The notes beneath the pieces are model-generated. The model saw only the letters and a program-made list of their open reading frames with translations, was not told the origin of the DNA and made no database searches. From Sipunculus nudus (lineage: Eukaryota; Annelida; Sipuncula; Golfingiida; Sipunculidae), in assembly GCA_026874595.1 (NCBI GenBank), contig CM049319.1:20881601-20945600 (forward strand): 64,000 bases of DNA. The letters are read 5' to 3'. Positions 1 to 64,000 of this stretch are shown here, piece after piece (positions within the stretch are counted from its first letter, which is position 1; the number at the start of each line of letters is the position of its first letter). The position numbers were made by a program, and so were the translations under genes.

Positions 1-1105
1 ATTTGAAAATACCAGCTGATCTAACTTTGGTCATTGACAGCGAATACTACCTGGAAGGGTGCTCCTGCCAATTATTGTTTGCATCTGTCATCTTTACACT
101 GTACCTGTCAAGTGCAACTTTGTGCAAAATGGAACTCCTCCATCTATTCAAAGGCTTGAATATGTCAAGCAAAGGAAGGGTGAGGCAGAACTTGCCCAAG
201 TTGACTGGTTGTCGCAATGTCATTCTCAGCTTGGACAGAATGACAGCTGTGTGAGCATTGTCACCTCTGGTGACATAGATGCTGTGCCCATTCATTTGTT
301 TGCCATCAGTAGGTTGTGGCCTAGGAGACAAGATGGAAAATTTTGTAACTCTGTCTTTGTACTGTTGCAGAAACCAAAGAGAATATGGGACATTTATAAC
401 ATCACCGGTATACTGGAGTTTCTTGAAAACCATCTGCAAGACCGCCAGATTGGTGTGAAAGTTGCAGTCACACTCTGTATGGGTGGAAATGATTTCCTGC
501 CCAAATTCTATGGGATATCCCATGAAAAAATGCTGCTCCAGGTGATACAGAATGACCATTTCAAAGAAAATTTGATCTGTACGAGTCGTGACAAAGTCAG
601 CCTTGATCCCGGTGTTTTCATAGACCTTATCAAACACTTATATTGCCCAAAAAGGAAACAGCCACAAGACATGGATTTTGATGAGGTGAGGAAATTAACT
701 ATTATGACACAAAATACAGGAGAGTATAGAAACCCACAGATGTGGCTTCCACCAATGAGCTGTCTCACTCAAGTTACCAAACTAGTGGAGCTTCAAATTG
801 AATACCTGGAGACTGTTGGCTGTCATGATGCTTCACTTCCCGATTTTCTAGGCAAAGGTTGTCTTAAGAAAACAAGTGCAGGAAAAATTGAATATGACTT
901 TGGGTCCGAGTCGTACAAAATTCTCAGCCAAGATCAACAAGAGCCAAGTTCAATAAATACAACACAAAAGACATTTTTAATTCCACAGGTGGTATCCAGT
1001 CAGGTCAAGAGAAAAGCTCCTGTCACTCCACAAAAGGGCACAAGAAGAAAAAGAATTTTGACATCTACACCAAAATATAAATTAAAACATGATGATAACT
1101 CATAA
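1..1105 (+). pseudogene. 3' end of transposon protein: XPG/FEN-like nuclease domain, frameshifted
   Basis: The 5' end lies outside the window. The reading frame from base 3 matches the nuclease domain of the complete copies (for example 52905-54002). At about base 73 one base is missing compared with the other three copies, so the frame jumps and resumes as an open frame from about 75 to the stop at 1103-1105. The resumed frame keeps the conserved acidic blocks GEAELAQ, SGDIDAVP and GGNDFLP, which match the XPG I-region and the following acidic motif of flap endonucleases. A basic tail (TPQKGTRRKR) follows and could bind DNA or act as a nuclear localisation signal. This copy should not make an intact nuclease unless the base is a sequencing error. 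Confidence 0.8.
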
Positions 1106-2390
1106 TTAGACTTTCATGATGATCAGATTGACCTTATGGGATCATTCAAGGTCAACTTTTATTGCATAAAAAGCTCATATTGTATATACCACTCCCTACT
1201 GCAGATAAACTATGCCAACAGCATTGAACAGACACAAGATTGAAAAGGGATACTATGATAAAGATGTTCAACATGCCCAATGACACTCCAGACAGAAGTA
1301 AACATATCAAAGCCAGAAAACAGTTTGCAATCGGCTGCATGGTTTCACAGAAGTGAAACGTAGCAGTAGAAGTAATTATAGATTTTTTTCCTAACACAAC
1401 AAATGAAATTAATCTTACAATCAATTTTGTCATAATATGTTGAATTTATTATTATTAGCTTGGGGGCTTATCATGATTGATATTAAAATGACACCTACTT
1501 ATCATATTCATGAATATATTAAGTACACTGTATGTAATGGGTGTACTGAAATTGTGACTGAAATGTCTTTTTCAATATGCACTCGCCTGGTTTGTATTTA
1601 GTTATCAGATTAAAAAAAAAACTGTAAAACAGATAAGTTGTGTTGTAAAAATATTTGTTTCTCAGGAATTTTCCCAGAAAAGGGTTTCCGCGTGCAATGT
1701 TCTATTCACAATTTTGCTGGCAGAAAACTATTGGAAGTTAAAAATCAGGTTATTAGATTACATTCTGTCTGTAAAAATTAAACTATGACCATTTAAATCT
1801 AAATAGTAATTCCTTATATTACTTCTAGAAATATGGTGATTTGAACCTAGTGAAAAGTTAGTAATGTCTGCAAATTAACTGTTCGTGATTGTGGCAATAT
1901 AAAAAAAACTTATTCTAAAGCCATAAGAATTTTAGTGCAGATGTTAAGAGGCCTATTTGGTTTGTGTGGTGCCTATGTGACAAAACAACCACCAAACAAA
2001 ATAGAACAAACGTGTTTCGTTTGACAGATCCCATTTGATAATATGAATTAAGCACAAAAGTGAGTTTATTATAGCATTACAGTTCATATTTACACTTTAA
2101 AACAAGAGAGTTATAAATACATAAGTACATGTATTTAATATTGATTTTGTGTTTTATCTGTATTTTATAAGAGGAATATACTGAAGGTTTGATTGCTGCC
2201 ACACAATTATATTTTAACAGTTTTGCTCTTTGCATGTATGTCAAATAAATAGGCCTGCTGTATTTTGCATCTTTATTATTACATTTTTTTTTTTGTTAAA
2301 AAATGCACTAATTTATATTTTGTACTCTTATTATTTTTTCTATTATTATTTTGCAACTAGAATTAAGCTATATTCTGTAGCATTATACTG
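1106..2390. other. AT-rich 3' region of transposon, non-coding
   Basis: Lies between the nuclease stop codon and the right terminal inverted repeat. It is AT-rich with homopolymer runs (T-run near 2284). Small open frames here, such as the minus-strand one at 1152-1433, have no recognisable protein character. An AATAAA at about 2246 could be a polyadenylation signal but is far from the stop codon. No gene is supported. Confidence 0.6.
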
Positions 2391-2556
2391 CACTGTGTAA
2401 ATATGATAGCAGCACGTAAATCTGCTGAACCCCACAGACCAGGGCAAACACTTTATCAGGGCAATTAATCAACCCCGGGCTCCATGCATGACAGTCTGCT
2501 GTAACCTGACCCCCAGCTCAAGTTGAGCTGGTATTCTGGAAAAATGTGCTGGACTG
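2391..2556. repeat. Right terminal inverted repeat of the first (truncated) inner transposon
   Basis: Reverse complement of the left terminus at 11844-12009, 166 bp, with a few mismatches. The outermost bases read inward as CAGTCCAGCACATTTGTCCA in intact copies. CACA follows at 2557-2560, the same tetranucleotide that flanks the complete copies. Confidence 0.85.
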
Positions 2557-2936
2557 CACATGCCCCGCTGATTATAACGGGCTATTATCTAAGTCTAAGC
2601 TGGCCGATGAGCGTGTCTCTGCCCAACAGGCTGCGGTCGCCCCGGGCTAGTGGTCGTGATACGGCTAATTAATTACGGGCTATTATCTAAGTCCAAGCTG
2701 GGCGATGAGCGTGTCATCTGCTCAACGGGCCGCGGTCGCCACGGGCCAGTGGTCGTGATACGGGGGCTCATTTGAAGGTCGGGACCAAAAAAAGGTGGTC
2801 GTTGGTCGTGATAGCGGGGTGGTCGTGTTAACGAAGTTTTTTTATATGATAATTTATATTAGACAATTCTGGGACCAAGAAAAGTGGTCGTGTTAGCGGA
2901 GTGGTCATGTTAACGGGGTGGTCGTCTTGCGGGAGT

Positions 2937-2941
<5 letters not shown>
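2557..2941. mobile_element. Right end of outer (host) transposon
   Basis: GC-richer DNA that begins with the CACA target duplicate and ends at a 26-bp terminus, the inverted counterpart of the one at 11326. The terminal zone carries several degenerate copies of a GTGGTCGTGTTAGCGG-like motif, which also occur inside the left end. It includes the 98-bp tandem repeat at 2577-2772. No open coding frame remains. Confidence 0.7.
2577..2772 (+). repeat. 98-bp tandem repeat, two copies
   Basis: Starts at 2577 and again at 2675 with ACGGGCTATTATCTAAGTC. Each copy ends in a GTGGTCGTGATACGG segment. Equivalent pairs are at 20241 and 55473; three copies occur at 37941. Confidence 0.85.

Positions 2942-3000
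<59 letters not shown>
2941..3000. repeat. TA microsatellite at outer-element border
   Basis: Perfect TA dinucleotide run directly after the outer terminus. Its counterparts at 20605, 38403 and 55837 differ in length. Confidence 0.9.
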
Positions 3001-3025
3001 AAACAGACTTAAATTAAGGAATGGT

Positions 3026-3232
3026 GTGACTGGAGTAGCCCTTGGAAGTTTTAAATCCTATCTCTCAGACCGTACACAATCCGTCCTGGTTGGGTTTGAG
3101 ACGTCAGATAGCGTACGTACCACTCAAATATGGAGTACCAATGATGTTTGTGTTGGGTTCAATTCATTTTACATTTATCCCATATTTGCTGGTGACGGAG
3201 AGGTTTTCCTGATGAAGCGGTTGTTCGATTAA
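3026..3232 (+). pseudogene. Non-LTR retrotransposon reverse transcriptase fragment
   Basis: The short frame contains GVALGSFKSYLSDRTQSVLVG, less its first residue, followed by TSDSVRTTQ. This closely resembles the stretch just before the GVPQGS motif in CR1/Jockey-type LINE reverse transcriptases, where the substrate-facing segment reads W-F-x-S-Y-L-x-x-R-x-Q. The similarity stops after TTQ: the expected GVPQGS is absent and the following residues look random. It is a fossil of about 30 codons with no start, no catalytic YADD box and no neighbouring RT sequence. The same fragment is present in all four units. Confidence 0.65.
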
Positions 3233-3568
3233 AGTATTGGTTCATTTAAGGCGGGACAATACAGATGCCCACGTAGATATTCAAACAAACATGTAAAACA
3301 ATATTTTTTGAATTTTGTGTGCAGGCCAATAACTTCCACTAGACCCATAAATGTATAGTAGGAACGATAATGGCATCAGTAGGTTTTCATTAGATTTACA
3401 CCGGCAAATATTCAATATACCTTGTATGATAAGGAGGAGAGATGAGGTGAGAAATAATAAACAAGGATGTGTGGTAAATATAACTTCTTAAAGGTAGTAA
3501 ACATTTCAGGTCCCGCTGGGAAATGGTACACGCGCGTATATGTACATATACGCGCGTATACGCGTATA

Positions 3569-3640
<72 letters not shown>

Positions 3641-3801
3641 CATATAGATGATAGCTCATGTTGTGTGTTCTGATTATATCACCAAAATAAAATGAATTGA
3701 ACCCAAAACAAACCCCTTTGGTACTCCATATTTCGGTGGTACGTACGCTATCTGACGTCTCAAACCTAACCAGGACGGATTTTGTACGGTCTGAAAGATG
3801 T
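3059..3801. repeat. Inverted repeat built from the RT fragment (112-bp arms)
   Basis: Bases 3059-3170 recur as reverse complement at 3690-3801 with scattered mismatches, separated by 519 bp that include a TA-rich tract. The right arm abuts the start of the giant palindrome. Both arms carry the CGTACGTACC/GGTACGTACG stretch. Confidence 0.8.
3529..3640. repeat. Alternating purine-pyrimidine tract (CGCGTATA then TA runs)
   Basis: Repeated GCGCGTATA blocks lead into two TA runs split by GATT. Equivalent tracts at about 21189, 38995 and 56404 vary in TA length. Such sequence can adopt Z-form or cruciform structures; no gene is present. Confidence 0.7.
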
Positions 3802-4264
3802 ATTTAGTTAATAATCATTTGTGTGGATCCATGATTCATTTACTCAAGTTAATCTGTTGTCTTATTAGATTAAGATTGAAGGTCCAAGGAGAATGATCTC
3901 TGTCTGCCTATATTTTAGTCTCCACAGTCGGGCGCCAATTGAAAAGTGTGAATTTTTTAATCAATGTACACATCAGTTCCCAAAAGTGACCTCCAATGGA
4001 GTAATGAGGCATAAGCCTTATTCCTTAGAATGAACCCAAACCTTAACCTGCATAATATTTTAGTAATTTATTACAATAAATATCTGACTTTTTATATTTT
4101 TTTACAATACTAAAACCCATTGATGACGTCCAAAGTCATTGTATACATGGTCACATGCTCCAACAACTACTTTAAAAAGCTCCAGATTAGTTGTTTAGTG
4201 TCATAAATATGCTAAAAAATGTTACTGTCAGTGTGAGGCTACCAACCTATAACAGTTGTCATGT

Positions 4265-4278
4265 CACGTGGCCACGTG
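4265..4278. promoter_or_regulatory. Double E-box palindrome CACGTGGCCACGTG
   Basis: A perfect 14-bp palindrome holding two CACGTG E-boxes of the bHLH type. It is conserved in the opposite arm at 10815-10828 and in every unit, although the surroundings have diverged. A binding role is inference only. Confidence 0.35.
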
Positions 4279-4384
4279 GTTCGTAAAAATCAGAAGATTG
4301 CAAAATATGCAATCTTTCAGGCTGATACGTCAAACCACTCCTGAGATATGAATGATATTTGCCAAGACATGAATGGAGGTAACG

Positions 4385-5015
4385 CAAAACGGGTGTAGTT
4401 GTCACCTCCAGTACTGTATTAAAAAAGAATCCAACAGCTATGGACATGAAAATTACCAGCCGATACGATACACTTACTTTGTTATGTGCATGGGTGAATA
4501 CTATGAAAGCGCGATTGTAGGTGGCGCCTAAGGTCTTCTGTACGACAGAGCTATTCAGGATGGATGTACATATCAAGCAACTCATGTGTTATATGTGTCT
4601 ACCAAACTAAATGCACGACTGGACCTCAGACAAAAACGATTGTAGGTTGCGCGATCAGTGTACGTGAAAAAAAAACTATTTTCAATTAATATGAAAATTT
4701 CGAACCACTCCTGATGAACGTTAATCGATGAATTCTTCAAAAAAATAATGTAGGTGGCGCCATCTATCTTGTGTTCGAGAAAGCCGTCACCACCCTGCAA
4801 ACTTTGAAATGTTCAGATATTTGTGATTTTCACCCAAAACAGACGCATGGATGAACGCAACGGATAAACGATTGTAGGAAGTGCTACCAGATAAATAAGA
4901 TCTTTGACATGCAAAATTTCAGGAAAACACATCAAACGGATTCTGATAAATGAAAACAGATGCATGCATGGATATCATGAAAAAAAACGGTTATATCAGG
5001 CGCCACCTAACTTCG
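4385..5015. repeat. Diverged tandem repeat, period about 120 bp
   Basis: A core resembling ATTGTAGGTGGCGCC recurs near 4394, 4516, 4641, 4749, 4873 and 4995, giving steps of 108-125 bp. Between cores, a second motif (AAATTTCxxxCCACTCCTGA-like) recurs less regularly. Monomers are strongly diverged. The mirrored array is in the right arm at about 10220-10770. It looks like an old satellite embedded in the duplicated segment. Confidence 0.6.
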
Positions 5016-5706
5016 TCACCGAAAAGGTACCCCTGTGACCCTATAAAGATTATTCCGTCCAGCGGTTACATAGATCTTCGTTAACGAACGCCGCTGAAAA
5101 CAAAGATGGAAGGGATTGATTTAAATAAGACAAATATTTCTCAGTTTTGTTCAGTGATGGAAAAGGTTTATATAAAATATTTTTGTACATGAGGAAATAT
5201 TAAAGGTTTTTCTTTTTACTTAACGAAAATGATACCGTAATCCATGGTAAACCGTTTCATGAAGATCAGTTTTGCTAAAGGAAGATCCACTGTAAATTAG
5301 TTTATTCTGAAGATGTACGGAGTATACTGTAATAATACCATTATCCCTCCCTCATCTGTAAAGTAGGTTTTTGTTTATTCTTTTTTCATTTTGTTAATTA
5401 GCATTTCAAAATAACACTAAACACATTTGATTTTCCCTGTGCTAAGGTTCATGAATTTACAAAATCGTCCAGTACAACAATGATAACGGCTGGTATCATA
5501 ATAAGGTTAGGACAACATTTCATTAAAACCGAAAATGATCACGGAGGCCCACGTCTATTCTTCCCTTTGTAAAATGAAGTAATTTGATCCTAGTGTTCTT
5601 GGCTGATAAGTGTTTATAAGATTTTTAGTTTTATTACTTATCCCATAATTTAGTTATAAAGCTAAGATTCCATCTAAACGTCGATTCGTTTTGTGAAGCA
5701 GGCATT

Positions 5707-5783
5707 CCGCATGCCGGATCCGTACGTATGGAATTCTACATTATTTGTTCAGTCAATATCGATTTTATCCGCATGCCGGATCC
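5707..5783 (+). repeat. Two direct copies of CCGCATGCCGGATCC, 62 bp apart
   Basis: Identical 15-mers at 5707-5721 and 5769-5783, each followed by a TATGGAAT or TTATGGAAT segment. A degenerate pair is found in the right arm near 9430-9490. They mark a short tandem duplication that predates the palindrome. Confidence 0.55.
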
Positions 5784-5903
5784 AAACATTATGGAATGTT
5801 AGTTAACTTTCACATATTTTCAGATCGCGCACTTAATGCCAGTCTAGACAGAGAGGAAAACACGAGAAGAGAGCGGGTTCATTTGTCATAGGATTAGCCT
5901 AGA

Positions 5904-5907
<4 letters not shown>

Positions 5908-5947
<40 letters not shown>

Positions 5948-6000
5948 ATATATATATACACATACATATACATATATATACATATATATATATATATATA
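5908..6000. repeat. Compound TC/TA microsatellite
   Basis: A (TC)n run changes into TA/CA repeats. Counterparts at 23559 and 41379 differ in length; the unit 4 counterpart at 59026 has lost the TC part because of a sequence switch between arms. Dipeptide-like open frames across it are artefacts of the repeat. Confidence 0.9.
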
Positions 6001-6348
6001 AGGAGACAGTATATACATGTATCATTACATGCGAAGTTAGGTATTATCCTTATTCAGATATTAAAAATATATGCAAAAACAGCTCCTCCACAAGTATAGA
6101 TGACCTTTTATTCATGTGTGCTGTGAATAAGTGGCAAGTGTCTCTCAACTAGCCTCTGTTACTCATATATTCCCTCATATCACAATGTGCTCTTTGTTGT
6201 TGTAATATAACATTACATGTGACATTTAAATATACATATCTGAGACACATGAAAAAATACATTATTACCCAAACGCCTTTCTCAGTTTGAATGTTCTGCA
6301 ATGTGAACACTTTAACGATATGCACTGTTAAAAAAAAATTTAGCGTTT

Positions 6349-7341
6349 TTATGGCCAGTCAAATCTTCTGTTGAGCAATGCGTATAATTTCTCATTGAAA
6401 GGATGATAGTAAGCTCTCATCTGCTTTAGAAGACTTTCATTGACAGTAGCATGCTTGACTCCTTTCAGTGCTCCCATACACTTTTCCTCGCCGTCCTTCC
6501 TATAGCAATAAAACCCCTTTTCCTCACTGTAAAATATCATACTTGAGTCAAACCTGCGAGGAATGTCCAGAAACTCTTCGACTTTCGCTAGTTCCACCAG
6601 CGGGTTTTTAATGAACAGGGCAGAATCTAATATCAGAAACTGATTCATGGGGAAATACTTAAAATAAGGCAGGAAACAAAGGTAGTAAATACCGAATTTG
6701 ATTATTTCCGTGTTGAGATTGAGCTGTGTCCGATTATCCTGGTAACATATAGCGTCTTCTATGGTTTTATTTCTCCAGTATGGGCGGGCCGCACGCCACA
6801 TTGAAAAATGTGATATGGCTCTTTGGACTGGATCCCTTAATATTAAAATTAGTTTAATATTTGGAGTTACCGCATGTAGTTTTTGCGCATTAGCATAGGA
6901 GCCATCCCCACAAAACCCTCCGGCAGCTGTCATTGTTATCTGGTCTTCTCGTGACAGAGGCATGAGAGACCGGTACCAGTCTATGCCTTTAGTCACTGCG
7001 TCTCGGTAGGTATGAAAGCCGATTGGTGCCTGTACAATGTTAGGATGGAGTCTTAGAAAGGTTTCCATAGTTTGAGTTCCTCCTTTCATTGCTCCTAAGA
7101 CATGTGCTTGAGGAAGACGTTTCATCAATGTAGATTTAGATGCATAATGTAATGACGTGTTTGGAGACGAGGAAATTTCTTCTTGAACAACTTTTTCTCC
7201 GCCTTTACGAGCCGATATAGCTTCTTTTATTCCTGTTGCACTTCTAACCAGTGATGGATACGTTTCTTCATACATAAATAGCCAGAGGACCAAACAAAAT
7301 ACGCTTACCAGAACACACAGTCTATACGGTCTCTGAACCAT
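6349..7341 (-). CDS. Golgi-type carbohydrate sulfotransferase, HS3ST-like (unit 1)
   Basis: An uninterrupted 330-codon frame, type II membrane topology: short N-terminal cytoplasmic stretch, hydrophobic segment at residues 7-23, then a lumenal domain. PAPS-binding motifs are GAMKGGTQT (83-91, 5'-phosphosulfate loop) and LILRDPVQRAIS (166-177, 3'-phosphate). A late GFYCYRKDGEEKC segment (277-288) supplies the paired cysteines and matches heparan-sulfate 3-O-sulfotransferases, as does the final FDWP. Four N-glycosylation sequons (61, 191, 203, 301). Length fits the family (about 300-400). Oddities: where vertebrate enzymes have a catalytic glutamate before H-F-F-D, this protein reads GFHTYRD, and the EKTP-like segment is replaced by FCGDGSYAN, so substrate or activity may differ. 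Start chosen at the first ATG before the membrane segment. Intronless; neighbours are only repeats. Confidence 0.82.
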   Translation of the reverse strand: MVQRPYRLCVLVSVFCLVLWLFMYEETYPSLVRSATGIKEAISARKGGEKVVQEEISSSPNTSLHYASKSTLMKRLPQAHVLGAMKGGTQTMETFLRLHPNIVQAPIGFHTYRDAVTKGIDWYRSLMPLSREDQITMTAAGGFCGDGSYANAQKLHAVTPNIKLILILRDPVQRAISHFSMWRAARPYWRNKTIEDAICYQDNRTQLNLNTEIIKFGIYYLCFLPYFKYFPMNQFLILDSALFIKNPLVELAKVEEFLDIPRRFDSSMIFYSEEKGFYCYRKDGEEKCMGALKGVKHATVNESLLKQMRAYYHPFNEKLYALLNRRFDWP

Positions 7342-7965
7342 TATGGCTGCCCTTTCGCAACGATGACCAAAGATGATATTGTCAGTCTTCGTACCAGGAA
7401 TATAGGAACATAATATGTATATACGTCAATACATATATCATATATAAGGTTTCGCTTGCTCTTGTTTCGATATATGATGCTACTAAAAAGAAACAGCACC
7501 CTCATGAATTTAGTGGTTTATAGCCAAGTTTAAGTTTGGCTCTTAAATCAATATCTTTATTTATTACAGCCATTCACGTGTAGACAACATTATACGATTT
7601 CTGTCTGCCTGTGTACATGTGTATCTGCAAGAGCGAGTACATAGTAATGACAGAGACCAGGAAATAGAATAAACGAATCTTTTTATAAGTTCACCCTACC
7701 TAGTGTACAATAATGCTCTACTATATTAGTAAAATTACGAAGTTATATGAGCATATCCGGAGCGCTTACATTCGTTTCACTCTGGTGCATCTTCGGGCGG
7801 GGATAGGGGAAGTGCTATCTGAGAATCCATAATTAAAAAAAGTGTGGACAGTATTTGCCTGAAAGTTCAATTTGACTGATGACTATCACTCAGGTACCCT
7901 TACGCCACGTAAGTAAAGAAAATTATGATGTTCTGTGATTGCAGCTTAAATTATAACAAACTACC

Positions 7966-8058
7966 CACAGACGAAGTGGGCGGGACTGTTGGAGGAGGAA
8001 TCCCCCTGCCCCGTGTGGACATTTATTAAAATACATACAATAAATTGTCATTTCTGTT
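7966..8058. other. Spacer at the centre of the palindrome, unit 1
   Basis: 93 bp between TTATAACAAACTACC (7951-7965) and its reverse complement (8059-8073). It is GC-richer in its first half (GAAGTGGGCGGGAC, then CCCCCTGCCCCG) and AT-rich in its second. It contains no coding signal. Confidence 0.8.
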
Positions 8059-8490
8059 GGTAGTTTGTTATAATATAAGCTCTAATCACAGAACATAATT
8101 ACTTGCTTTAATATACGAAGCTTAAGGGTAACTGAGTGATAGTCAACAGTCAAATTGAATTTTCTTGGAAATACTGTCGACATTTTTTTTTACCCATGAA
8201 TGCTCAGATCTCACTTACCCATCCCCCACTCGAAGTAATGGTACTTGACTACCTGATTGACAAACCAGATTTAAAAGAATGTAAGCGCTCCGGATATGCT
8301 AATTTTACTTCATAATTTTCGTACTACTAGAGTAGAGCGTTATTGTAAACTAGGTTGGGGGCGTATTAAAAGATACGTTTATTCTATGTCCTGGCCTCTG
8401 CCATTTCTATGTACTTGCGCTTGCAGATACATATACACACAGGCGGACAAACAGAAAGACAGAAAACGCCGTTATATTGTTCTATACACG

Positions 8491-8890
8491 TTACCAGGAG
8501 AACCGGACACAGCTTAATCTGAACACTGAAATAAGCAAACACGGTATTTACTACCTATGTTTCCTGCCTCATTTCAAGTATTTCCCCATTAATCATTTCC
8601 TGATATTGGATTCTGCTCTATTCGTTAAAAACCCGCTTGTAAACTAGCTTTAGTCGAAGAGTTTCTGGGTATTCTTCGCAGGATTGACTCTTGTCTGATA
8701 TTTTACAGTGAGGGAAAGGGGTTTTATTGCTACAGAAAGGACGGCGAGGAAAAGTGTATGGGAGCTCTGAAAGGGGTAAAACATGCTACTGTCCATGAGA
8801 GTCTTCTCAAGCAGATGAGAGCCTACTAACGTCCTTACAATTAGATATTATACGCATGCATTACTAAACAGAATATTTGACTGGCCCTAG
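8491..8890 (+). pseudogene. Broken 3' half of sulfotransferase in right arm, unit 1
   Basis: Matches the left-arm gene from about residue 201 (the NRTQLNLNTEI region) to the terminal FDWP. The first half, including both cofactor loops, is missing. Several in-frame stops and frameshifts are present, for example a TAG soon after the KNPLV segment and a stop in the region equal to residues 309-312. It cannot encode an enzyme. Confidence 0.85.
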
Positions 8891-9238
8891 AACCGCTACG
8901 TTGCCTTTTTTTTTCAACAGTGCATATCGTAAAAGTGTTCACATTGCAGAAACATTCAAACTGTGAAAGTCGTTTGGGTAATAATGTGTTATTTCATGTA
9001 TCTCAGATATGTATATTCAAATGTCACATGTAATGTTATATTACAAGAAGAAAGAGTACATGGTAATATAAGGGAATATATGAGTAACAGAGACTGGTTG
9101 AGAGACGCCATTTATTCTCAGCACAGATGAATAAAAAAGTTCATCTATAATTTGTGGAGGAGCTGTTTTTACCTATATTTTTAATATCTGAATAAATGAC
9201 TATACTTAACTCCGTATGTAATGAAATATGTATATACT

Positions 9239-9249
9239 CTCTCTCTCTT

Positions 9250-9283
<34 letters not shown>

Positions 9284-9286
9284 CAC
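9239..9286. repeat. TC/TA microsatellite in right arm, unit 1
   Basis: Counterpart of the left-arm tract at 5908; much longer in the later units (26888-26963, 44736-44817, 62313-62397). Confidence 0.85.
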
Positions 9287-11288
9287 TCTAGGCCTATCCT
9301 ATAACATATAAATCCGTTTTCTTTTCGCTTTTTCTCTCTCTCTCTGTCTAGACTGGTAATGTGTGTGCGATCCGAAAATATGTTAAAGTTAACTAAAATT
9401 CCATATGCACAGAACGTGGAACCGGCAGGCGGATATAATCGAAATTGAAAATAATGTAAGATCCCATATACACGGATCCGGCATGCGGAATGGTTGCTGC
9501 ACAAAACGAATCGACATGCTGGTGGATTCTTAGCTTTATAACCAAATTATTGGATTAATAAATAATACTAAAAATCTTAAAATAAAACACTAATCAGCCA
9601 AGCACACTGGATCAAATTACTTCATTATAGAAAGGCAAGAATAGATGAAGGCTTTCAAGGTCATTTTTGGGTTTTCAATTAAATGTTTTCCTGGCCTCAT
9701 AATACCAGCCGTTATCATTTTTGTACTGGAGGATTTTGTTAATTCAGGTACCTTAGCACAGGGAAAATCAAGGTGTTTACTGTTATTTTAAAATACTAAT
9801 AACAAAAATAAAAAAATAAACAAAAACCTACTTTACAGATGAGGGAGGGATAATGGTTATATTACAGTATACTCCGTACATCTTCAGAATAAACTAGTTT
9901 CCAGTGAATCTTCCTTTAGCAAAACGCCTCTAGTCACAAAAATGATCTTTATAAAACCGTTACCATGCATTATGGTATCATTTTCGATAGGTCAAAACAA
10001 AAACCTTTAAAATTTCCTCATGTACCAAAATATTTTATACTCACCTTTTTCATCAGTGAACAATACTGAATTAAATTAAATCTAATTAAAATCAATCCAT
10101 TTCATTTTTGTTTTCAGCGGCGTTCGTTAACGAAGATCTCCTCTTCAACCGCTGGACGGAATTTTCCAAAACTTTGTATCTTGATAGAGTCACATGGGAA
10201 CCTTTTCCTTGATGAAGATAGGTGGCGCCACATATAACATTTCTTTGCGTGATATCAATTCATGCGTCTGTTCTTATTTTTCAGAATCGGTTTGATGTCG
10301 GTTTGATGTCTTCCTGAAATTCTGCATGTCATGGATCTTATTTATCTGGTAGCGCCTCTAACAATCGTTTATGCGTTCCGTTCATCCGTGCGTCTGTTTT
10401 GGGTAAAAATCACATATATCTCAGGATCTTAAAGTTTGCAGTCTTTGACAGCTTCCTCATACACAAGTGGCGTCACCTACAATCATTTCTTGAAAAATTC
10501 ATCAATAAACACAAATCAGGAGTGGTTCGAAGTATCGGCCTGAAATTTTCATATCCATAGAACATGTTTTTTTTCTCAAGTACAGTTCCCGCATAACCTA
10601 CGATCGTGTTTGTCTGATGTCCAGTCGTGCATCTAGTTTGGTGAAACACACATAGCTTTAAGATACTTTTAATATACAATACTGAAGGCGCCAACTACAC
10701 CCGATTTGCGTTACCTCCATTCATGTCTTGGTAAATACCATTCATATCTCAGGAGTGGTTTGACGTATCAGCCTGAAAGATTGTATATTTTACAACCTTC
10801 TGATTTGTTCGAACCACGTGGCCACGTGACATGACAACTGTCATAGGCTGGAAGCCTTTGTTTAACAGAAACATTTTTTTAGAATATAATGACACGAACT
10901 AAACAACCAATCTGGAGCTTTTTAAAGAAGTTATTTAAGCATGTGTCCATGCATACAATGACTTTGACTTTCATCAATGGGTTTGAGTATTGTACAAAAA
11001 ATAAATAAAAAAATCAGATATTTATTGTTATGAATTACTAACATATTACACACGTTATGGTTTGGTTTCATTCTAAGGAATAAGGCTTATACCCCATTAC
11101 TCCATTGCAGCTCACTTTTGGGAACTGATATGTATATTGATTAAAACATTCACACTTTTCAATTTGCGCCTGACTGTGGAAACTTAAGTATAGGTAGACA
11201 GAGATCTTTTTCTTGGACCTTCAATCTTAATCTTATAAGACAACAGATTAACTTGAGTAAAAGAATCATGGATCAACACAAATTAACA

Positions 11289-11290
<2 letters not shown>

Positions 11291-11325
<35 letters not shown>
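11291..11325. repeat. TA microsatellite before outer transposon, unit 1
   Basis: Pure TA run ending directly at the outer element's terminus. It prevents recognition of a TA target duplication. Confidence 0.9.
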
Positions 11326-11328
<3 letters not shown>

Positions 11329-46823: not shown

Positions 46824-46826
<3 letters not shown>

Positions 46827-46865: not shown

Positions 46866-46868
<3 letters not shown>

Positions 46869-54002: not shown

Positions 54003-55286
54003 TTAGACTTTCATGATGATCAGATTGACCTTATGGGATCATTCAAGGTCAACTTTTATTGCATAAAAAGCTCATATTGTATATACCACTCCCTACTGCA
54101 GATAAACTATGCCAACAGCATTGAACAGACACAAGATTGAAAAGGGATACTATGATAAAGATGTTCAACATGCCCAATGACACTCCAGACAGAAGTAAAC
54201 ATATCAAAGCCAGAAAGCAGTTTGCAATCGGCTGCATGGTTTCACAGAAGTGAAACGTAGCAGTAGAAGTAATTATAGATTTTTTTCCTAACACAACAAA
54301 TGAAATTAATCTTACAATCAATTTTGTCATAATATGTTGAATTTATTATTATTAGCTTGGGGGCGTATCATGATTGATATTAAAATGACACCTACTTATC
54401 ATATTCATGAATATATTAAGTACACTGTATGTTATGGGTGTACTGAAATTGTGACTGAAATTTCTTTTTCAATATGCACTCGCCTGGTTTGTATTTAGTT
54501 ATCAGATTTAAAAAAAAACTGTAAAACAGATAAGTTGTGTTGTAAAAATATTTGTTTCTCAGGAATTTTCCCAGAAAAGGGTTTCCGCGTGCAATGTTCT
54601 ATTCACAATTTTGCTGGCAGAAAACTATTGGAAGTTAAAAATCAGGTTATCAGATTACATTCTGTCTGTAAAAATAAAACTATGACCATTTAAATCTAAA
54701 TAGTAATTCCTTATATTACTTCTAGAAATATGGTGATTTGAACCTAGTGAAAAGTTAGTAATGTCTGCAAATTAACTGTTCGTGATTGTGGCAATATAAA
54801 AAAAACTTATTCTAAAGCCATAAGAATTTTAGTGCAGATGTTAAGAGGCCTATTTGGTTTGTGTGGTGCCTATGTGACAAAACAACCACCATACAAAATA
54901 GAACAAACGTGTTTCGTTTGACAGATCCCATTTGATAATATGAATTAAGCACAAAAGTGAGTTTATTATAGCATTACAGTTCATATTTACACTTTAAAAC
55001 AAGAGAGTTATAAATACATAAGTACATGTATTTAATATTGATTTTGTGTTTTATCTGTATTTTATAAGAGGAATATACTGAAGGTTTGATTGCTGCCACA
55101 CAATTATATTTTAACAGTTTTGCTCTTTGCATGTATGTCAAATAAATAGGCCTGCTGTATTTTGCATCTTTATTTTTACATTTTTTTGTTGTTAAAAAAT
55201 GCACTAATTTATATTTTGTACTCTTATTATTTTTTCTATTATTATTTTGCAACTAGAATTAAGCTATATTCTGTAGCATTATACTG
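54003..55286. other. AT-rich 3' region of copy C, non-coding
   Basis: Same as 1106-2390; no supported gene. Confidence 0.6.
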
Positions 55287-55472
55287 CACTGTGTAAATAT
55301 GATAGCAGCACGTAAATCTGCTGAACCCCACAGACCAGGGCAAACACTTTATCAGGGCAATTAATCAACCCCGGGCTCCATGCATGACAGTCTGCTGTAA
55401 CCTGACCCCCAGCTCAAGTTGAGCTGGTATTCTGGACAAATGTGCTGGACTGCACATGCCCCGCTGATTATA

Positions 55473-55668
55473 ACGGGCTATTATCTAAGTCTAAGCTGGC
55501 CGATGAGCGTGTCTCTGCCCAACAGGCTGCGGTCGCCCCGGGCTAGTGGTCGTGATACGGCTAATTAATTACGGGCTATTATCTAAGTCCAAGCTGGGCG
55601 ATGAGCGTGTCATCTGCTCAACGGGCCGCGGTCGCCACGGGCCAGTGGTCGTGATACGGGGGCTCATT
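55473..55668 (+). repeat. 98-bp tandem repeat, two copies (third outer copy)
   Basis: Starts at 55473 and 55571. Confidence 0.8.
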
Positions 55669-55832
55669 TGAAGGTCGGAACCAAAAAAAGGTGGTCGTTG
55701 GTCGTGATAGCGGGGTGGTCGTGTTAACGAAGTTTTTTTATATGATAATTTATATTAGACAATTCTGGGACCAAGAAAAGTGGTCGTGTTAGCGGAGTGG
55801 TCATGTTAACGGGGTGGTCGTCTTGCGGGAGT

Positions 55833-55836
<4 letters not shown>

Positions 55837-55876
<40 letters not shown>
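55837..55876. repeat. TA microsatellite, unit 4
   Basis: Shortest of the four tracts at this position. Confidence 0.9.
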
Positions 55877-55877
<1 letters not shown>

Positions 55878-55899
55878 CAGACTTAAATTAAGGAATGGT

Positions 55900-56106
55900 G
55901 TGACTGAAGTAGCCCTTGGAAGTTTTAAATCCTATCTCTCAGACCGTACACAATCCGTCCTGGTTGGGTTTGAGACGTCAGATAGCGTACGTACCACTCA
56001 AATATGGAGTACCAATGATGTTTGTGTTGGGTTCAATTCATTTTACATTTATCCCATATTTGCTGGTGACGGTGAGGTTTTCCTGATGAAGCGGTTGTTC
56101 GATTAA
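55900..56106 (+). pseudogene. Reverse transcriptase fragment, unit 4
   Basis: Gly to Glu at the third codon (MTEVALG); inverted partner at 56574-56685. Confidence 0.6.
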
Positions 56107-56442
56107 AGTATTGGTTCATTTAAGGCGGGACAATACAGATGCCCACGTAGATATTCAAACAAACATGTAAAACAATATTTTTTGAATTTTGTGTGCAGGC
56201 CAATAACTTCCACTACACCCATAAATGTATAGTAGGAACGATAATGGCATCAGTAGGTTTTCATTAGATTTACACCAGCAAATATTCAATATACCTTGTA
56301 TGATAAGGAGGAGAGATGAGGTGAGAAATAATAAACAAGGATGTGTGGTGAATATAACTTCTTAAAGGTAGTAAACATTTCAGGTCCCGCTGGGAAATGG
56401 TACACGCGCGTATATGTACATATACGCGCGTATACGCGTATA

Positions 56443-56504
<62 letters not shown>

Positions 56505-58493
56505 TTATATATATATATATATAGCATATAGATGATAGCTCATGTTGTGTGTTCTGATTATATCACCAAAATAAAATGAATTGAACCCAAAACAAACCCC
56601 TTTGGTACTCCATATTTCGGTGGTACGTACGCTATCTGACGTCTCAAACCTAACCAGGACGGATTTTGTACGGTCTGAAAGATGTATTTAGTTAATAATC
56701 ATTTGTGTGGATCCATGATTCATTTACTCAAGTTAATCTGTTGTCTTATTAGATTAAGATTGAAGGTCCAAGGAGAATGATCTCTGTCTACCTATATTTT
56801 AGTCTCCACAGTCGGGCGCCAATTGAAAAGTGTGAATTTTTTAATCAATGTACACATCAGTTCCCAAAAGTGACCTCCAATGGAGTAATGAGGCATAAGC
56901 CTTATTCCTTAGAATGAACCCAAACCTTAACCTGCATAATATTTTAGTAATTTATTACAATAAATATCTGACTTTTTATATTTTTTTACGATACTAAAAC
57001 CCATTGATGACGTCCAAAGTCATTGTATACATGGTCACATGCTCCAACAACTACCTTAAAAAGCTCCAGATTAGTTGTTTAGTGTCATAAATATGCTAAA
57101 AAATGTTACTGTCAGTGTGAGGCTACCAACCTATAACAGTTGTCATGTCACGTGGCCACGTGGTTCGTAAAAATCAGAAGATTGCAAAATATGCAATCTT
57201 TCAGGCTGATACGTCAAACCACTCCTGAGATATGAATGATATTTGCCAAGACATGAATGGAGGTAACGCAAAACGGGTGTAGTTGTCACCTCCAGTACTG
57301 TATTAAAAAAGTATCCAACAGCTATGGACATGAAAATTACCAGCCGATACGATACACTTACTTTGTTATGTGCATGGGTGAATACTATGAAAGCGCGATT
57401 GTAGGTGGCGCCTAAGGTCTTCTGTACGACAGAGCTATTCAGGATGGATGTACATATCAAGCAACTCATGTGTTATATGTGTCTACCAAACTAAATGCAC
57501 GACTGGACCTCAGACAAAAACGATTGTAGGTTGCGCGATCAGTGTACGTGAAAAAAAAAACTATTTTCAATTAATATGAAAATTTCGAACCACTCCTGAT
57601 GAACGTTAATCGATGAATTCTTCAAAAAAATTAATGTAGGTGGCGCCATCTATCTTGTGTTCGAGAAAGCCGTCACCACCCTGCAAACTTTGAAATGTTC
57701 AGATATTTGTGATTTTCACCCAAAACAGACGCATGGATGAACGCAACGGATAAACGATTGTAGGAAGTGCTACCAGATAAATAAGATCTTTGACATGCAA
57801 AATTTCAGGAAAACACATCAAACGGATTCTGATAAATGAAAACAGATGCATGCATGGATATCATGAAAAAAAACGGTTATATTAGGCGCCACCTAACTTC
57901 GTCACCAAAAAGGTACCCCTGTGACCCTATAAAGATTATTCCGTCCAGCGGTTACATAGATCTTCGTTAACGAACGCCGCTGAAAACAAAGATGGAAGGG
58001 ATTGATTTAAATAAGACAAATATTTCTCAGTTTTGTTCAGTGATGGAAAAGGTTTATATAAAATATTTTTGTACATGAGGAAATATTAAAGGTTTTTCTT
58101 TTTACTTAAGGAAAATGATACCGTAATCCATGGTAAACCGTTTCATGAAGATCAGTTTTGCTAAAGGAAGATCCACTGTAAATTAGTTTATTCTGAAGAT
58201 GTACGGAGTATACTGTAATAATATCATTATCCCTCCCTCATCTGTAAAGTAGGTTTTTGTTTATTCTTTTTTCATTTTGTTAATTTGCATTTCAAAATAA
58301 CACTAAACACATTTGATTTTCCCTGTGCTAAGGTTCATGAATTAACAAAATCGTCCAGTACAACAATGATAACGGCTGGTATCATAATAAGGTTAGGACA
58401 ACATTTCATTAAAACCGAAAATGATCACGGAGGCCCACGTCTATTCTTCCCTTTATAAAATGAAGTAATTTGATCCTAGTGTTCTTGGCTGAT

Positions 58494-59023
58494 ATTATTT
58501 TTGTTATTAGTATTTTAAAAATAACAGTAAACACCTTGATTTTCCCTGTGCTAAGGTACCTGAATTAACAAAATCCTCCAGTACAAAAATGATAACGGCT
58601 GGTATTATGAGGCCAGGAAAACATTTAATTGAAAACCCAAAAATGACCTTGAAAGCCTTCATCTATTCTTGCCTTTCTATAATGAAGTAATTTGATCTAG
58701 TGTGCTTGGCTGATTAGTGTTTTATTTTAAGATTTTTAGTATTATTTACTAATCCCATATTTTGGTTATAAAGCTAAGAATCCACCAGCATGTCGATTCG
58801 TTTTGTGCAGCAACCATTCCGCATGCCGGATCCGTGTATATGGGATCTTACATTATTTTCAATTTCGATTATATCCGCCTGCCGGTTCCACGTTCTGTGC
58901 ATATGGAATTTTAGTTAACTTTAACATATTTTCGGATCGCACACACATTACCAGTCTAGACAGAGAGAGAGAGAAAAAGCGAAAAGAAAACGGATTTATA
59001 TGTTATAGGATTGGCCTAGAGTG

Positions 59024-59070
<47 letters not shown>
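58494..59070. repeat. Right-arm sequence transplanted into left arm (conversion or template switch)
   Basis: At GGCTGAT|ATTATTTTTG the left-arm sequence stops. The reverse complement of the right arm starts at a point homologous to about 58270, so the region with GATTTTCCCTGTGCTAAGG occurs twice (58314 and 58540). The patch carries right-arm-specific variants (CGCCTGCCGGTTCCACG, ACACACATTACCAG, GAGAAAAAGCGAAAAG) and lacks the TC run. It returns to left-arm sequence after a TA run at AAGGAGACAG. Confidence 0.85.
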
Positions 59071-59074
<4 letters not shown>

Positions 59075-59421
59075 AGACAGTATATACATGTATCATTACA
59101 TGCGAAGTTAGGTATTATCCTTATTCAGATATTAAAAATATATGCAAAAACAGCTCCTCCACAAGTATAGATGACCTTTTATTCATGTGTGCTGTGAATA
59201 AGTGGCAAGTGTCTCTCAACTAGCCTCTGTTACTTATATATTCCCTCATATCACAATGTGCTCTTTGTTGTTGTAATATAACATTACATGTGACATTTAA
59301 ATATACATATCTGAGACACATGAAAAAATACATTATTACCCAAACGCCTTTCTCAGTTTGAATGTTCTGCAATGTGAACACTTTAACGATATGCACTGTT
59401 AAAAAAAAAAAATTAGCGTTT

Positions 59422-60414
59422 TTATGGCCAGTCAAATCTTCTGTTGAGCAATGCGTATAATTTCTCATTGAAAGGATGATAGTAAGCTCTCATCTGCTTT
59501 AGAAGACTTTCATTGACAGTAGCATGCTTGACTCCTTTCAGTGCTCCCATACACTTTTCCTCGCCGTCCTTCCTATAGCAATAAAACCCCTTTTCCTCAC
59601 TGTAAAATATCATACTTGAGTCAAACCTGCGAGGAATGTCCAGAAACTCTTCGACTTTCGCTAGTTCCACCAGTGGGTTTTTAACGAACAGGGCAGAATC
59701 TAATATCAGAAACTGATTCATGGGGAAATACTTAAAATAAGGCAGGAAACAAAGGTAGTAAATACCGAATTTGATTATTTCCGTGTTGAGATTGAGCTGT
59801 GTCCGATTATCCTGGTAACATATAGCGTCTTCTATGGTTTTATTTCTCCAGTATGGGCGGGCCGCACGCCACATTGAAAAATGTGATATGGCTCTTTGGA
59901 CTGGATCCCTTAATATTAAAATTAGTTTAATATTTGGAGTTACCGCATGTAGTTTTTGCGCATTAGCATAGGAGCCATCCCCACAAAACCCTCCGGCAGC
60001 TGTCATTGTTATCTGGTCTTCTCGTGACAGAGGCATGAGAGACCGGTACCAGTCTATGCCTTTAGTCACTGCGTCTCGGTAGGTATGAAAGCCGATTGGT
60101 GCCTGTACAATGTTAGGATGGAGTCTTAGAAAGGTTTCCATAGTTTGAGTTCCTCCTTTCATTGCTCCTAAGACATGTGCTTGAGGAAGACGTTTCATCA
60201 ATGTAGATTTAGATGCATAATGTAATGACGTGTTTGGAGACGAGGAAATTTCTTCTTGAACAACTTTTTCTCCGCCTTTACGAGCCGATATAGCTTCTTT
60301 TATTCCTGTTGCACTTCTAACCAGTGATGGATACGTTTCTTCATACATAAATAGCCAGAGGACCAAACAAAATACGCTTACCAGAACACACAGTCTATAC
60401 GGTCTCTGAACCAT
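59422..60414 (-). CDS. HS3ST-like sulfotransferase, unit 4 copy
   Basis: 330 codons, open. It has the consensus residues at all positions that vary among copies except that residue 244 is Val. It therefore best represents the common form. The conversion patch of this arm ends about 350 bp before the stop codon on the plus-strand map and does not touch the gene. Confidence 0.82.
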   Translation of the reverse strand: MVQRPYRLCVLVSVFCLVLWLFMYEETYPSLVRSATGIKEAISARKGGEKVVQEEISSSPNTSLHYASKSTLMKRLPQAHVLGAMKGGTQTMETFLRLHPNIVQAPIGFHTYRDAVTKGIDWYRSLMPLSREDQITMTAAGGFCGDGSYANAQKLHAVTPNIKLILILRDPVQRAISHFSMWRAARPYWRNKTIEDAICYQDNRTQLNLNTEIIKFGIYYLCFLPYFKYFPMNQFLILDSALFVKNPLVELAKVEEFLDIPRRFDSSMIFYSEEKGFYCYRKDGEEKCMGALKGVKHATVNESLLKQMRAYYHPFNEKLYALLNRRFDWP

Positions 60415-61044
60415 TATGGCTGCCCTTTCGCAACGATGACCAAAGATGATATTGTCAGTCTTCGTACCAGGAATATAGGAACATAATATGTATATACGTC
60501 AATACATATATCATATATAAGGTTTCGCTTGCTCTTGTTTCGATATATGATGCTACTAAAAAGAAACAGCACCTTCATGAATTTAGTGGTTTATAGCCAT
60601 TGTGAAGTTTAAGTTTGGCTCTTAAATCAATATCTTTATTTATTACAGCCATTCACGTGTAGACAACATTATACGATTTCTGTCTGCCTGTGTACATGTG
60701 TATCTGCAAGAGCTAGTACATAGTAATGACAGAGACCAGGAAATAGAATAAACGAATCTTTTAATAAGTTCACCCTACCTAGTGTACAATAATGCTCTAC
60801 TATATTAGTAAAATTACGAAGTTATATGAGCATATCCGGAGCGCTTACATTCGTTTCACTCTGGTGCATCTTCGGGCGGGGATAGGGGAAGTGCTATCTG
60901 AGAATCCATAATTAAAAAAAGTGTGGACAGTATTTGCATGAAAGTTCAATTTGACTGATGACTATCACTCAGGTACCCTTACGCCACGTAAGTAAAGAAA
61001 ATTATGATGTTCTGTGATTGCAGCTTAAATTATAACAAACTACC

Positions 61045-61137
61045 CACAGACGAAGTGGGCGGGACTGCTGGAGGAGGAATCCCCCTGCCCCGTGTGGACA
61101 TTTATTAAAATACATACAATAAATTGTCATTTCTGTT
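61045..61137. other. Spacer at palindrome centre, unit 4
   Basis: 93 bp, as in units 2 and 3. Confidence 0.8.
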
Positions 61138-61569
61138 GGTAGTTTGTTATAATATAAGCTCTAATCACAGAACATAATTACTTGCTTTAATATACGAAGC
61201 TTAAGGGTAACTGAGTGATAGTCAACAGTCAAATTGAATTTTCTTGGAAATACTGTCGACATTTTTTTTTACCCATGAATGCTCAGATCTCACTTACCCA
61301 TCCCCCACTCGAAGTAACGGTACTTGACTACCTGATTGACAAACCAGATTTAAAAGAATGTAAGCGCTCCGGATATGCTAATTTTACTTCATAATTTTCG
61401 TACTACTAGAGTAGAGCGTTATTGTAAACTAGGTTGGGGGCGTATTAAAAGATACGTTTATTCTATGTCCTGGCCTCTGCCATTTCTATGTACTTGCGCT
61501 TGCAGATACATATACACACAGGCGGACAAACAGAAAGACAGAAAACGCCGTTATATTGTTCTATACACG

Positions 61570-61968
61570 TTACCAGGAGAACCGGACACAGCTTAATCTG
61601 AACACTGAAATAAGCAAACACGGTATTTACTACCTATGTTTCCTGCCTCATTTCAAGTATTTCCCCATTAATCATTTCCTGATATTGGATTCTGCTCTAT
61701 TCGTTAAAAACCCGCTTGTAAACTAGCTTTAGTCGAAGAGTTTCTGGGTATTCTTCGCAGGATTGACTCTTGTCTGATATTTTACAGTGAGGGAAAGGGG
61801 TTTTATTGCTACAGAAAGGACGGCGAGGAAAAGTGTATGGGAGCTCTGAAAGGGGTAAAACATGCTATCTCCATGAGAGTCTTCTCAAGCAGATGAGAGC
61901 CTACTAACGTCCTTACAATTAGATATTATACGCATGCATTGCTAAACAGAATATTTGACTGGCCCTAG
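61570..61968 (+). pseudogene. Broken 3' half of sulfotransferase, unit 4 right arm
   Basis: Same stops and the same extra deletion as in unit 3. Confidence 0.85.
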
Positions 61969-62312
61969 AACCGCTACGTTGCCTTTTTTTTCAACAGTGC
62001 ATATCGTAAAAGTGTTCACATTGCAGAAAATTCAAACTGTGAAAGTCGTTTGGGTAATAATGTGTTATTTCATGTATCTCAGATATGTATATTCAAATGT
62101 CACATGTAATGTTATATTACAAGAAGAAAGAGTACATGGTAATATGAGGGAATATATGAGTAACAGAGACTGGTTGAGAGACGCCATTTATTCTCAGCAC
62201 AGATGAATAAAAAAGTTCATCTATAATTTGTGGAGGAGCTGTTTTTACCTATATTTTTAATATCTGAATAATGACTATACTTAACTCCGTATGTAATGAA
62301 ATATGTATATAC

Positions 62313-62323
62313 TCTCTCTCTCT

Positions 62324-62396
<73 letters not shown>

Positions 62397-62397
62397 C
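62313..62397. repeat. TC/TA microsatellite, unit 4 right arm
   Basis: Nearly the same as the unit 3 tract at 44736. Confidence 0.85.
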
Positions 62398-64000
62398 ACT
62401 CTAGGCCAATTCTATAACATATAAATCCGTTTTCTTTTCGCTTTTTCTCTCTCTCTCTGTCTAGACTGGTAATGTGTGTGCGATCCGAAAATATGTTAAA
62501 GTTAACTAAAATTCCATATGCACAGAACGTGGAACCGGCAGGCGGATATAATCGAAATTTAAAATAATGTAAGATCCCATATACACGGATCCGGCATGCG
62601 GAATGGTTGCTGCACAAAACGAATCGACATGCTGGTGGATTCTTAGCTTTATAACCAAATTATTGGATTAATAAATAATACTAAAAATCTTAAAATAAAA
62701 CACTAATCAGCCAAGCACACTGGATCAAATTACTTCATTATAGAAAGGCAAGAATAGATGAAGGCTTTCAAGGTCATTTTTGGGTTTTCAATGAAATGTT
62801 TTCCTGGCCTCATAATACCAGCCGTTATCATTTTTGTCCTGGAGGATTTTGTTAATTTAGGTACCTTAGCACAGGGAAAATCAAGGTGTTTACTGTTATT
62901 TTTAAAATTCTAATAACAAAAATAAAAAAATAAACAAGAACCTACTTTACAGATGAGGGAGGGATAATGGTTATATTACAGTATACTCCGTACATCTTCA
63001 GAATAAACTAGTTTCCAGTGAATCTTCCTTCAGCAAAACGCCTCTAGTCACAAAAATGATCTTTATAAAACCGTTACCATGCATTATGGTATCATTTTCG
63101 ATAGGTCAAAACAAAAACCTTTAAAATTTCCTCATGTACCAAAATATTTTATACTCACCTTTTTCATCAGTGAACAATACTGAATTAAATTAAATCTAAT
63201 TAAAATCAATCCATTTCATTTTTGTTTTCAGCGGCGTTCGTTAACGAAGATCTCCTCTTCAACCGCTGGACGGAATTTTCCAAAACTTTGTATCTTGATA
63301 GAGTCACATGGGAACCTTTTCCTTGATGAAGATAGGTGGCGCCACATATAACATTTCTTTGCGTGATATCAATTCATGCGTCTGTTCTTATTTTTCAGAA
63401 TCGGTTTGATGTCGGTTTGATGTCTTCCTGAAATTCTGCATGTCATAGATCTTATTTATCTGGTAGCGCCTCTAACAATCGTTTATGCGTTCCGTTCATC
63501 CGTGCGTCTGTTTTGGGTAAAAATCACATATATCTCAGGATCTTAAAGTTTGCAGTCTTTGACAGCTTCCTCATACACAAGTGGCGTCACCTACAATCAT
63601 TTCTTGAAAAATTCATCAATAAACACAAATCAGGAGTGGTTCGAAGTATCGGCCTGAAATTTTCATATCCATAGAACATGTTTTTTTTTTCTCAAGTACA
63701 GTTCCCGCATAACCTACGATCGTGTTTGTCTGATGTCCAGTCGTGCATCTAGTTTGGTGAAACACACATAGCTTTAAGATACTTTTAATATACAATACTG
63801 AAGGCGCCAACTACACCCGTTTTGCGTTACCTCCATTCATGTCTTGGTAAATACCATTCATATCTCAGGAGTGGTTTGACGTATCAGCCTGAAAGATTGT
63901 ATATTTTACAACCTTCTGATTTGTCCGAACCACGTGGCCACGTGACATGACAACTGTCATAGGCTGGAAGCCTTTGTTTAACAGAAACATTTTTTTAGAA

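Follow-up and report, generated by a model that had tools for sequence, protein, structure and literature searches.

An HS3ST-like gene block and an AcademX-like passenger transposon in a tandem array of Sipunculus nudus, probably amplified by unequal crossing over

We analyzed a 64-kb stretch of the Sipunculus nudus genome (C14:20881601-20945600, forward strand; hereafter the window, with negative coordinates lying to its left). In this window, a DNA transposon and a gene block containing an HS3ST-like sulfotransferase gene are repeated head to tail. We consider it very probable that the array arose by recent tandem amplification through homologous unequal crossing over, with the transposon as a passenger and not the mover. 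The locus preserves the anatomy of the repeated unit, a target-site duplication (TSD) together with its empty site, a gene-conversion tract, a near-identical segment one period long, and a break shared by all copies of the first open reading frame (ORF1) of the transposon. All results come from the sequence of a single assembly (1.43 Gb, 153 contigs), which was also the genome searched.

Self-BLAST places ~3.6 units of ~17.7 kb each in the window. Each unit consists of a ~8.4-kb DNA transposon and a ~9.4-kb gene block. Direct matches occur far above chance at offsets of ~17.4-17.8 kb and their multiples; for example, positions 1-20427 match 17663-38126 with 99.08% identity over 20,493 bp. Identities of the 11 longest direct matches span 95.8-99.2%; the three lowest values belong to matches that begin at the unit 4 conversion tract. 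The assembled direct array extends from about -5.2 to +86.6 kb and contains five transposons and six intact sulfotransferase ORFs. The transposons have left ends at -4680, 11844, 29547, 47384 and 64972 and right ends at 2556, 20220, 37920, 55452 and 73347, giving a unit spacing of 16.5-17.9 kb. To the right of the direct array, a diverged sequence related to the gene region is present at 125.5-127.3 kb (84-85% DNA and 83% protein identity). The window contains the following features.

1-2556 (+): transposon copy 1, right part; the whole copy spans -4680 to 2556 (7237 bp), has an internal deletion of ~1.1 kb (12132 joined to 13265, in the coordinates of copy 2) and has CACA on both sides
2557-11843: gene block 1
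3798-6751: left arm of the inner inverted repeat, block 1
6352-7425 (-): HS3ST-like sulfotransferase ORF, block 1; open frame of 358 codons between stops, the first ATG being codon 29
8485-11302: right arm of the inner inverted repeat, block 1; holds a remnant of the 3' part of the gene, with stops
11840-11843: CACA TSD, left of transposon copy 2
11844-20220 (+): transposon copy 2, AcademX-like, 8377 bp; inverted ends at 11844-12011 and 20053-20220
20221-20224: CACA TSD, right of transposon copy 2
20221-29546: gene block 2
23999-25072 (-): HS3ST-like ORF, block 2
29547-37920 (+): transposon copy 3
33323-36466 (+): ORF2 of transposon copy 3, 1048 open codons
37921-47383: gene block 3
37941-38225: 98-bp repeat in block 3, 2.9 copies
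41848-42921 (-): HS3ST-like ORF, block 3
43806-61851: segment of the youngest one-unit duplication, 8 mismatches to the next copy rightward
47384-55452 (+): transposon copy 4; one copy of the 306-bp internal duplication is missing, probably lost
50856-53999 (+): ORF2 of transposon copy 4, 1048 open codons
55453-64000: gene block 4, truncated where the window stops (the whole block ends at 64971)
58495-59023: gene-conversion tract, left arm of block 4
59425-60498 (-): HS3ST-like ORF, block 4

No tRNA was found by a tRNA scan of the window, and an Rfam scan gave no match at the gathering threshold. A preliminary description of this DNA had recognized near-identical, large head-to-tail units that combine a transposon with a carbohydrate-sulfotransferase-like gene, and our analysis agrees. 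That description had four units filling the window, where the head-to-tail array amounts to ~3.6. It also used the term macrosatellite, which suits a near-identical direct array of large units but is too strong for five units within a gene cluster. The transposon had been called nested; it sits between gene blocks and not inside another transposon. Finally, the array was expected to run beyond both ends. It does so for ~1.3 units on the right, but on the left it reaches only to about -5.2 kb, where the orientation flips.

The units have individual histories. In 10 pairwise comparisons each, the five gene blocks differ in 0.39-1.31% of aligned bases and the five transposons in 0.04-0.58%. Blocks 1-4 are 0.56-1.10% apart and carry private indels and microsatellites, as well as the 98-bp repeat, which has 2.9 copies in block 3 and two in blocks 1 and 2. 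The lengths of (TA)n tracts vary between units. A 306-bp tandem duplication lies within transposons 2 (12385-12952) and 3 (30088-30654), with matches of 90-92%, and is absent from transposon 4. Such private indels and microsatellite lengths had been pointed out before and are confirmed here. The data also support the earlier view that the locus was already complex when it was recently amplified.

We identified the boundaries of the transposon and its target site. The element has terminal inverted repeats (TIRs) of 168 bp that start with CAGTCCAGC; 159 of the 168 positions are complementary in copy 2. CACA flanks both ends of all five transposons in the direct array. The rightmost block junction, at ~82.72 kb, is free of the transposon and reads TTTCC-CACA-TGCCC, a sequence that occurs once in a 224-kb region when both strands are counted. 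Because this natural unoccupied site carries CACA only once, the 4-bp duplication is established. A single insertion suffices to account for the five copies, since all have the same CACA and the same neighbours. Over ~0.8 kb, the terminal empty-site block diverges by 1.9-2.8% from the five occupied blocks (five comparisons). The occupied blocks are 0.24-1.68% apart over the same stretch; each of the four comparisons exceeding 1% includes block 3, where the 98-bp repeat upsets the alignment. Because the terminal block is the more diverged, it is more likely that this junction never held the element than that the element was later lost. A LINE-like (by eye) reverse transcriptase fragment adjoins the terminal empty site (L019:8071-8679; PF00078, E 8.7e-22).

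The coding content of the transposon suggests that it multiplied without transposing. All five copies share the position of a break in the ORF1 frame, and copy 3 carries an extra break. An ORF2 of 1048 open codons persists in 3/5 copies. Between copies 3 and 4, ORF2 has 9 nonsynonymous and 3 synonymous changes, a ratio near 0.9 on small counts. We searched the genome with the ORF2 protein and the TIR, scoring best candidates only. Among the 50 ORF2 matches listed, those of at least 95% identity all lie at the array locus on C14; relatives outside the locus reach at most 62%, and the long ones 41-45%. All 15 TIR matches of at least 95% are likewise at the array locus, and the sole other TIR match among the best candidates (86%) is on C3. 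The shared ORF1 break, together with no near-identical copy being found elsewhere among the best candidates, argues that the transposon multiplied as a passenger.

The gene block is an inverted duplication that contains one full gene and one gene remnant. The full ORF lies in the left arm and the spacer, and the right arm holds the remnant. The main piece of the inner arms (e.g., 4590-6746 versus 8490-10654) has ~79-81% identity in inverted orientation. Outer and inner arm pieces reach 86-88%, and values near 90% take in the conversion tract. This 529-bp tract (58495-59023) is 98.1-99.05% identical to the inverted right arms of the five units and 100% identical to the unit 5 copy, as against ~85% identity with the left arms of units 1-3. 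We read it as an arm-to-arm gene conversion that took place before units 4 and 5 separated. The block had been described as palindromic, with old and diverged arms. The arms are indeed inverted and mostly 79-87% alike, but they hold one gene and one remnant and form no perfect palindrome, and the tract in units 4 and 5 departs from the general age of the arms. A 112-nt inverted pair at 3060-3171 and 3688-3799 was considered as a miniature inverted-repeat transposable element; we dropped this assignment because its translation appears to resemble a reverse-transcriptase fragment. A dispersed copy of the gene block (C7:66592195-66594835; 86% in the arm) adjoins a decayed sulfotransferase.

The most recent event is visible as a one-unit duplication. 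Segment 43806-61851 differs from the sequence one period to the right by eight mismatches in ~18 kb (45259, 48403, 48423, 50672, 55907, 56073, 59470 and 61097), seven small gaps, and the 306-bp repeat missing in transposon 4. We excluded 26 mismatches at 47920-48180, which fall in the overlapping ends of two alignment pieces across the 306-bp repeat. In a separate multiple alignment, transposons 4 and 5 differ by 3 mismatches and 1 gap. The flanks of the segment diverge by 0.6-0.8%, with 18 mismatches in 41447-43805 and 4 in 61852-62500. Within block 4, the sequence up to unit position ~8.56 kb has 4 mismatches to block 5, and the remainder has a single mismatch to block 3. One crossover offset by one unit would explain a low-divergence, one-period segment with diverged flanks. 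Alternatively, the youngest unit could be a mis-assembled extra unit.

The left edge of the array is complicated by a scaffold gap and a fold-back. A run of 500 Ns, presumably a scaffold join, lies 13 kb left of the window at -13536 to -13037 (C14:20868064-20868563). The 13,471 bp on each side of this gap match directly except for one gap and four neighbouring bases at the centre. In addition, the two contigs are reverse complements of each other over 18,971 bp (3 mismatches, 6 gaps). Both therefore contain the same fold-back centre, at about -20203 and -6233, where a ~0.96-kb segment occurs in both orientations with a 4-bp spacer; the segment is also present at -40632 to -39669. The two contig ends flanking the gap are probably unmerged overlaps of one place, one of them being redundant, and an assembly error at the left palindrome beside the gap is likely. 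If there is one real palindrome and not a read artefact, it measures ~25 kb, with arms extending ~12.3 kb outward on each side. Left of the fold-back, pieces of the unit amount to ~18 kb in minus and ~9 kb in plus orientation and end at about -49.5 kb. None of the papers listed in a literature search dealt directly with fold-back assembly artefacts.

Several further features were seen on this side. A 263-codon ORF at the palindrome centre (L017:3738-4529) has no Pfam match at E 0.1, and the segment's ORF presumably resembles the end of a Penelope-type element, in its GIY-YIG region. A separate tandem repeat occupies the left flank at -57043 to -53161, with match offsets stepping by ~153 bp. 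The outer flanks of the locus (20.72-20.79 and 21.01-21.07 Mb) may form an old inverted duplication, as their gene orientations suggest, but the left and right flanks compared share only scattered repeats on both strands.

These findings raise the question of whether unmerged haplotypes or overlapping contigs have inflated the copy number, so that fewer true units exist. The sequence repeated around the 500-N gap and the eight mismatches of the youngest unit are what such an artefact would leave. However, no N occurs within the window, and C14 is a chromosome-scale sequence of 68 Mb. Blocks 1-4 also differ from one another and carry private markers, which would be unexpected for duplicated haplotypes in tandem register. 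We therefore regard an artefact as an improbable source of the array. The earlier view that the copies are real stands in so far as the units carry private differences, and has to be qualified for the left palindrome and the youngest unit, where an artefact is possible.

We characterized the sulfotransferase gene of the array. The ORF has 358 open codons, with its first ATG at codon 29 and a TAA stop (computed on block 3; block 1 has the same residues). Its product matches the Pfam sulfotransferase family PF00685 (49.7 bits versus a cutoff of 22), and its best PDB matches are HS3ST5 and HS3ST1, with E 4.9e-45 to 3bd9 and a domain of ~260 residues. Like HS3STs (e.g., PDB 3bd9 and 3uan), the array protein has a sulfotransferase domain with the KGGT-loop lysine, and by eye a hydrophobic N-terminal stretch follows the first Met; unlike them, it has no catalytic Glu. 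The ORF is intact in 7/7 full-length copies of at least 98% identity, six of which belong to the direct array and the seventh to the inverted part on the left. A partial copy of the gene (91%) contains two stops. The pooled ratio of nonsynonymous to synonymous polymorphism (pN/pS) is 0.22 when all seven copies are compared (21 non-independent pairs) and 0.20 when the terminal copy is left out (15 pairs). The corresponding divergence ratio (dN/dS) to the flanking 83% copy is 0.41. Ratios of this size would be consistent with selection on the gene.

The missing Glu may change the function of the protein. PMC8341778 reports a set of 3-OST-3 residues, Glu184 among them, any of which leaves <1% activity when mutated. 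We transferred the 3-OST-3 numbering by motif spacing from the HS3ST5 and HS3ST1 alignments, leaving Gln255 unmapped. In the HS3ST5 alignment, the equivalents of Glu184, Lys215, Arg166, Asp189 and Arg370 are changed in the array protein, and those of Lys162, His186 and Lys368 are kept. The substitutions include APIGFHTYR for ASQEIHFFD, AAGGF for KSPAY, and KGV for KGR. The gaps near the Glu position differ in the HS3ST1 alignment, and that stretch still has no Glu. The array protein may use a different acceptor or be a pseudoenzyme. HS3ST-like genes are also found on C7, C15, C12, C10 and C6 (at least 117 matches), many of them in local clusters, and three paralogues on C7 and C6 with 46-49% identity also lack the Glu. 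None of the papers listed in a literature search dealt directly with sulfotransferase expansion in bivalves.

Another view of the locus is that of an actively evolving ampliconic palindrome, in which a non-canonical HS3ST-like protein without the catalytic Glu is selected for dosage, and in which repeated unit gains, conversion and, if it is real, the new fold-back keep seven copies near-identical as the passenger transposon decays. Palindromic amplicons with arm-to-arm gene conversion occur on sex chromosomes. The array resembles them in that its inverted arms carry a conversion tract. It differs in that the inner arms are only ~79-87% alike outside the tract, so conversion has been rare in the array. 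We hold this view to be improbable. Reinsertion of an extrachromosomal circle or replication-based template switching is less plausible still: template switching can leave an asymmetric 4-bp spacer in a short inverted sequence such as that at the left fold-back centre, but the direct units differ in age (transposon divergence from 0.04% to 0.58%) and the array shows a one-period step, not an equal-age burst. Amplification by the element's own transposase or nuclease, which would have moved or re-replicated the unit, is very unlikely, since an element at every block junction except the terminal one and an ORF2 open in 3/5 copies are outweighed by the sufficiency of one insertion, the broken ORF1, the lack of dispersed near-identical copies among the best candidates, and a switch point of the youngest duplication that lies inside a gene block at ~43.8 kb and not at a transposon end.

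We compared the passenger transposon to known superfamilies. The stretches RKGEAE, TSGDID and GGNDFLP are invariant in four aligned sequences, two of them near-identical, and we take them to resemble XPG-I motifs. With its long TIRs and a large ORF containing what look to us like XPG/FEN motifs, the element is similar to AcademX. No helicase match was obtained when four transposon ORFs were scanned with Pfam at E up to 1; the absence of a superfamily-2 helicase in these ORFs is as in AcademX as opposed to AcademH. When ORF2 was searched in two halves at E up to 10, the sole Pfam match was Cas_Csy4 at 0.18, below the cutoff, and a further profile search of the transposon ORFs returned ribosomal eL28 at 0.013 and two matches at ~2. 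We attribute these matches to chance. PMC10045372 gives TSDs of 3-4 bp for AcademX and 9-10 bp for AcademH; the 4-bp TSD of the array element, with its unoccupied site, falls within the AcademX range. According to PMC10294476, curated bivalve Academ elements have a mean length of 5,565 bp, and Academ is nearly confined to bivalves among the molluscs studied. The array element differs in its length of 8.4 kb and in that, among the best candidates, near-identical copies of it were confined to a single locus. Judged by TSD, TIRs and the look of its motifs, the element appears AcademX-like and is not a proven member.

A related transposon family is present on three chromosomes (L029, L030 and L031), with copies 97.5-98.9% alike. 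Its members have two long ORFs of ~650-660 and 1,145-1,149 codons, the second of which is interrupted in L031. ORF1 of the array element is 30-49% identical to ORF1 of this family. No TIR turned up in 9.9-kb stretches around the three elements, although these stretches may stop short of the left end.

Taken together, unequal crossing over would account for the array through the following order of events. The ~9.4-kb block with its now diverged arms would have arisen by an old inverted duplication that enclosed an HS3ST-like gene with its coding part in a single exon. The block was then presumably duplicated in tandem, and one AcademX-like transposon would have inserted at one block-block junction, duplicating CACA. 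Unequal crossing over may then have raised the ~17.7-kb unit of transposon and block to five copies, with no transposon at the terminal junction. In the common ancestor of units 4 and 5, the conversion tract would have passed from the right arm to the left arm, and one more unit-length crossover would have produced the youngest copy. Throughout, the gene ORF would be the part kept intact. Several points count against this account. The copy number and the youngest unit could be assembly errors. The gap, the duplicated contig end and the fold-back make the history of the left side unreadable. The pN/pS values are based on few changes, and no Pfam or PDB profile match backs an XPG or DDE domain in the transposon ORFs.

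Crossing over between units places this locus near macrosatellites and tandem gene clusters that undergo concerted evolution. Like them, it has large, near-identical direct units with an ORF, and exchange between units and arms. It differs in comprising five units and a terminal remnant, and in that its unit holds a DNA transposon as well as an inverted duplication within the block. The mechanism is an ordinary one, combining tandem duplication, unequal exchange and conversion, with an unusually legible history. The array points to an expanded HS3ST-like family whose sampled members lack the usual catalytic residue. One locus legibly records how an array grows, from an empty site and a single insertion through passenger amplification and inter-arm conversion to the latest one-unit duplication. 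Here, transposon copy number would stem from recombination and not from transposition, and counts of repeats would misread it.

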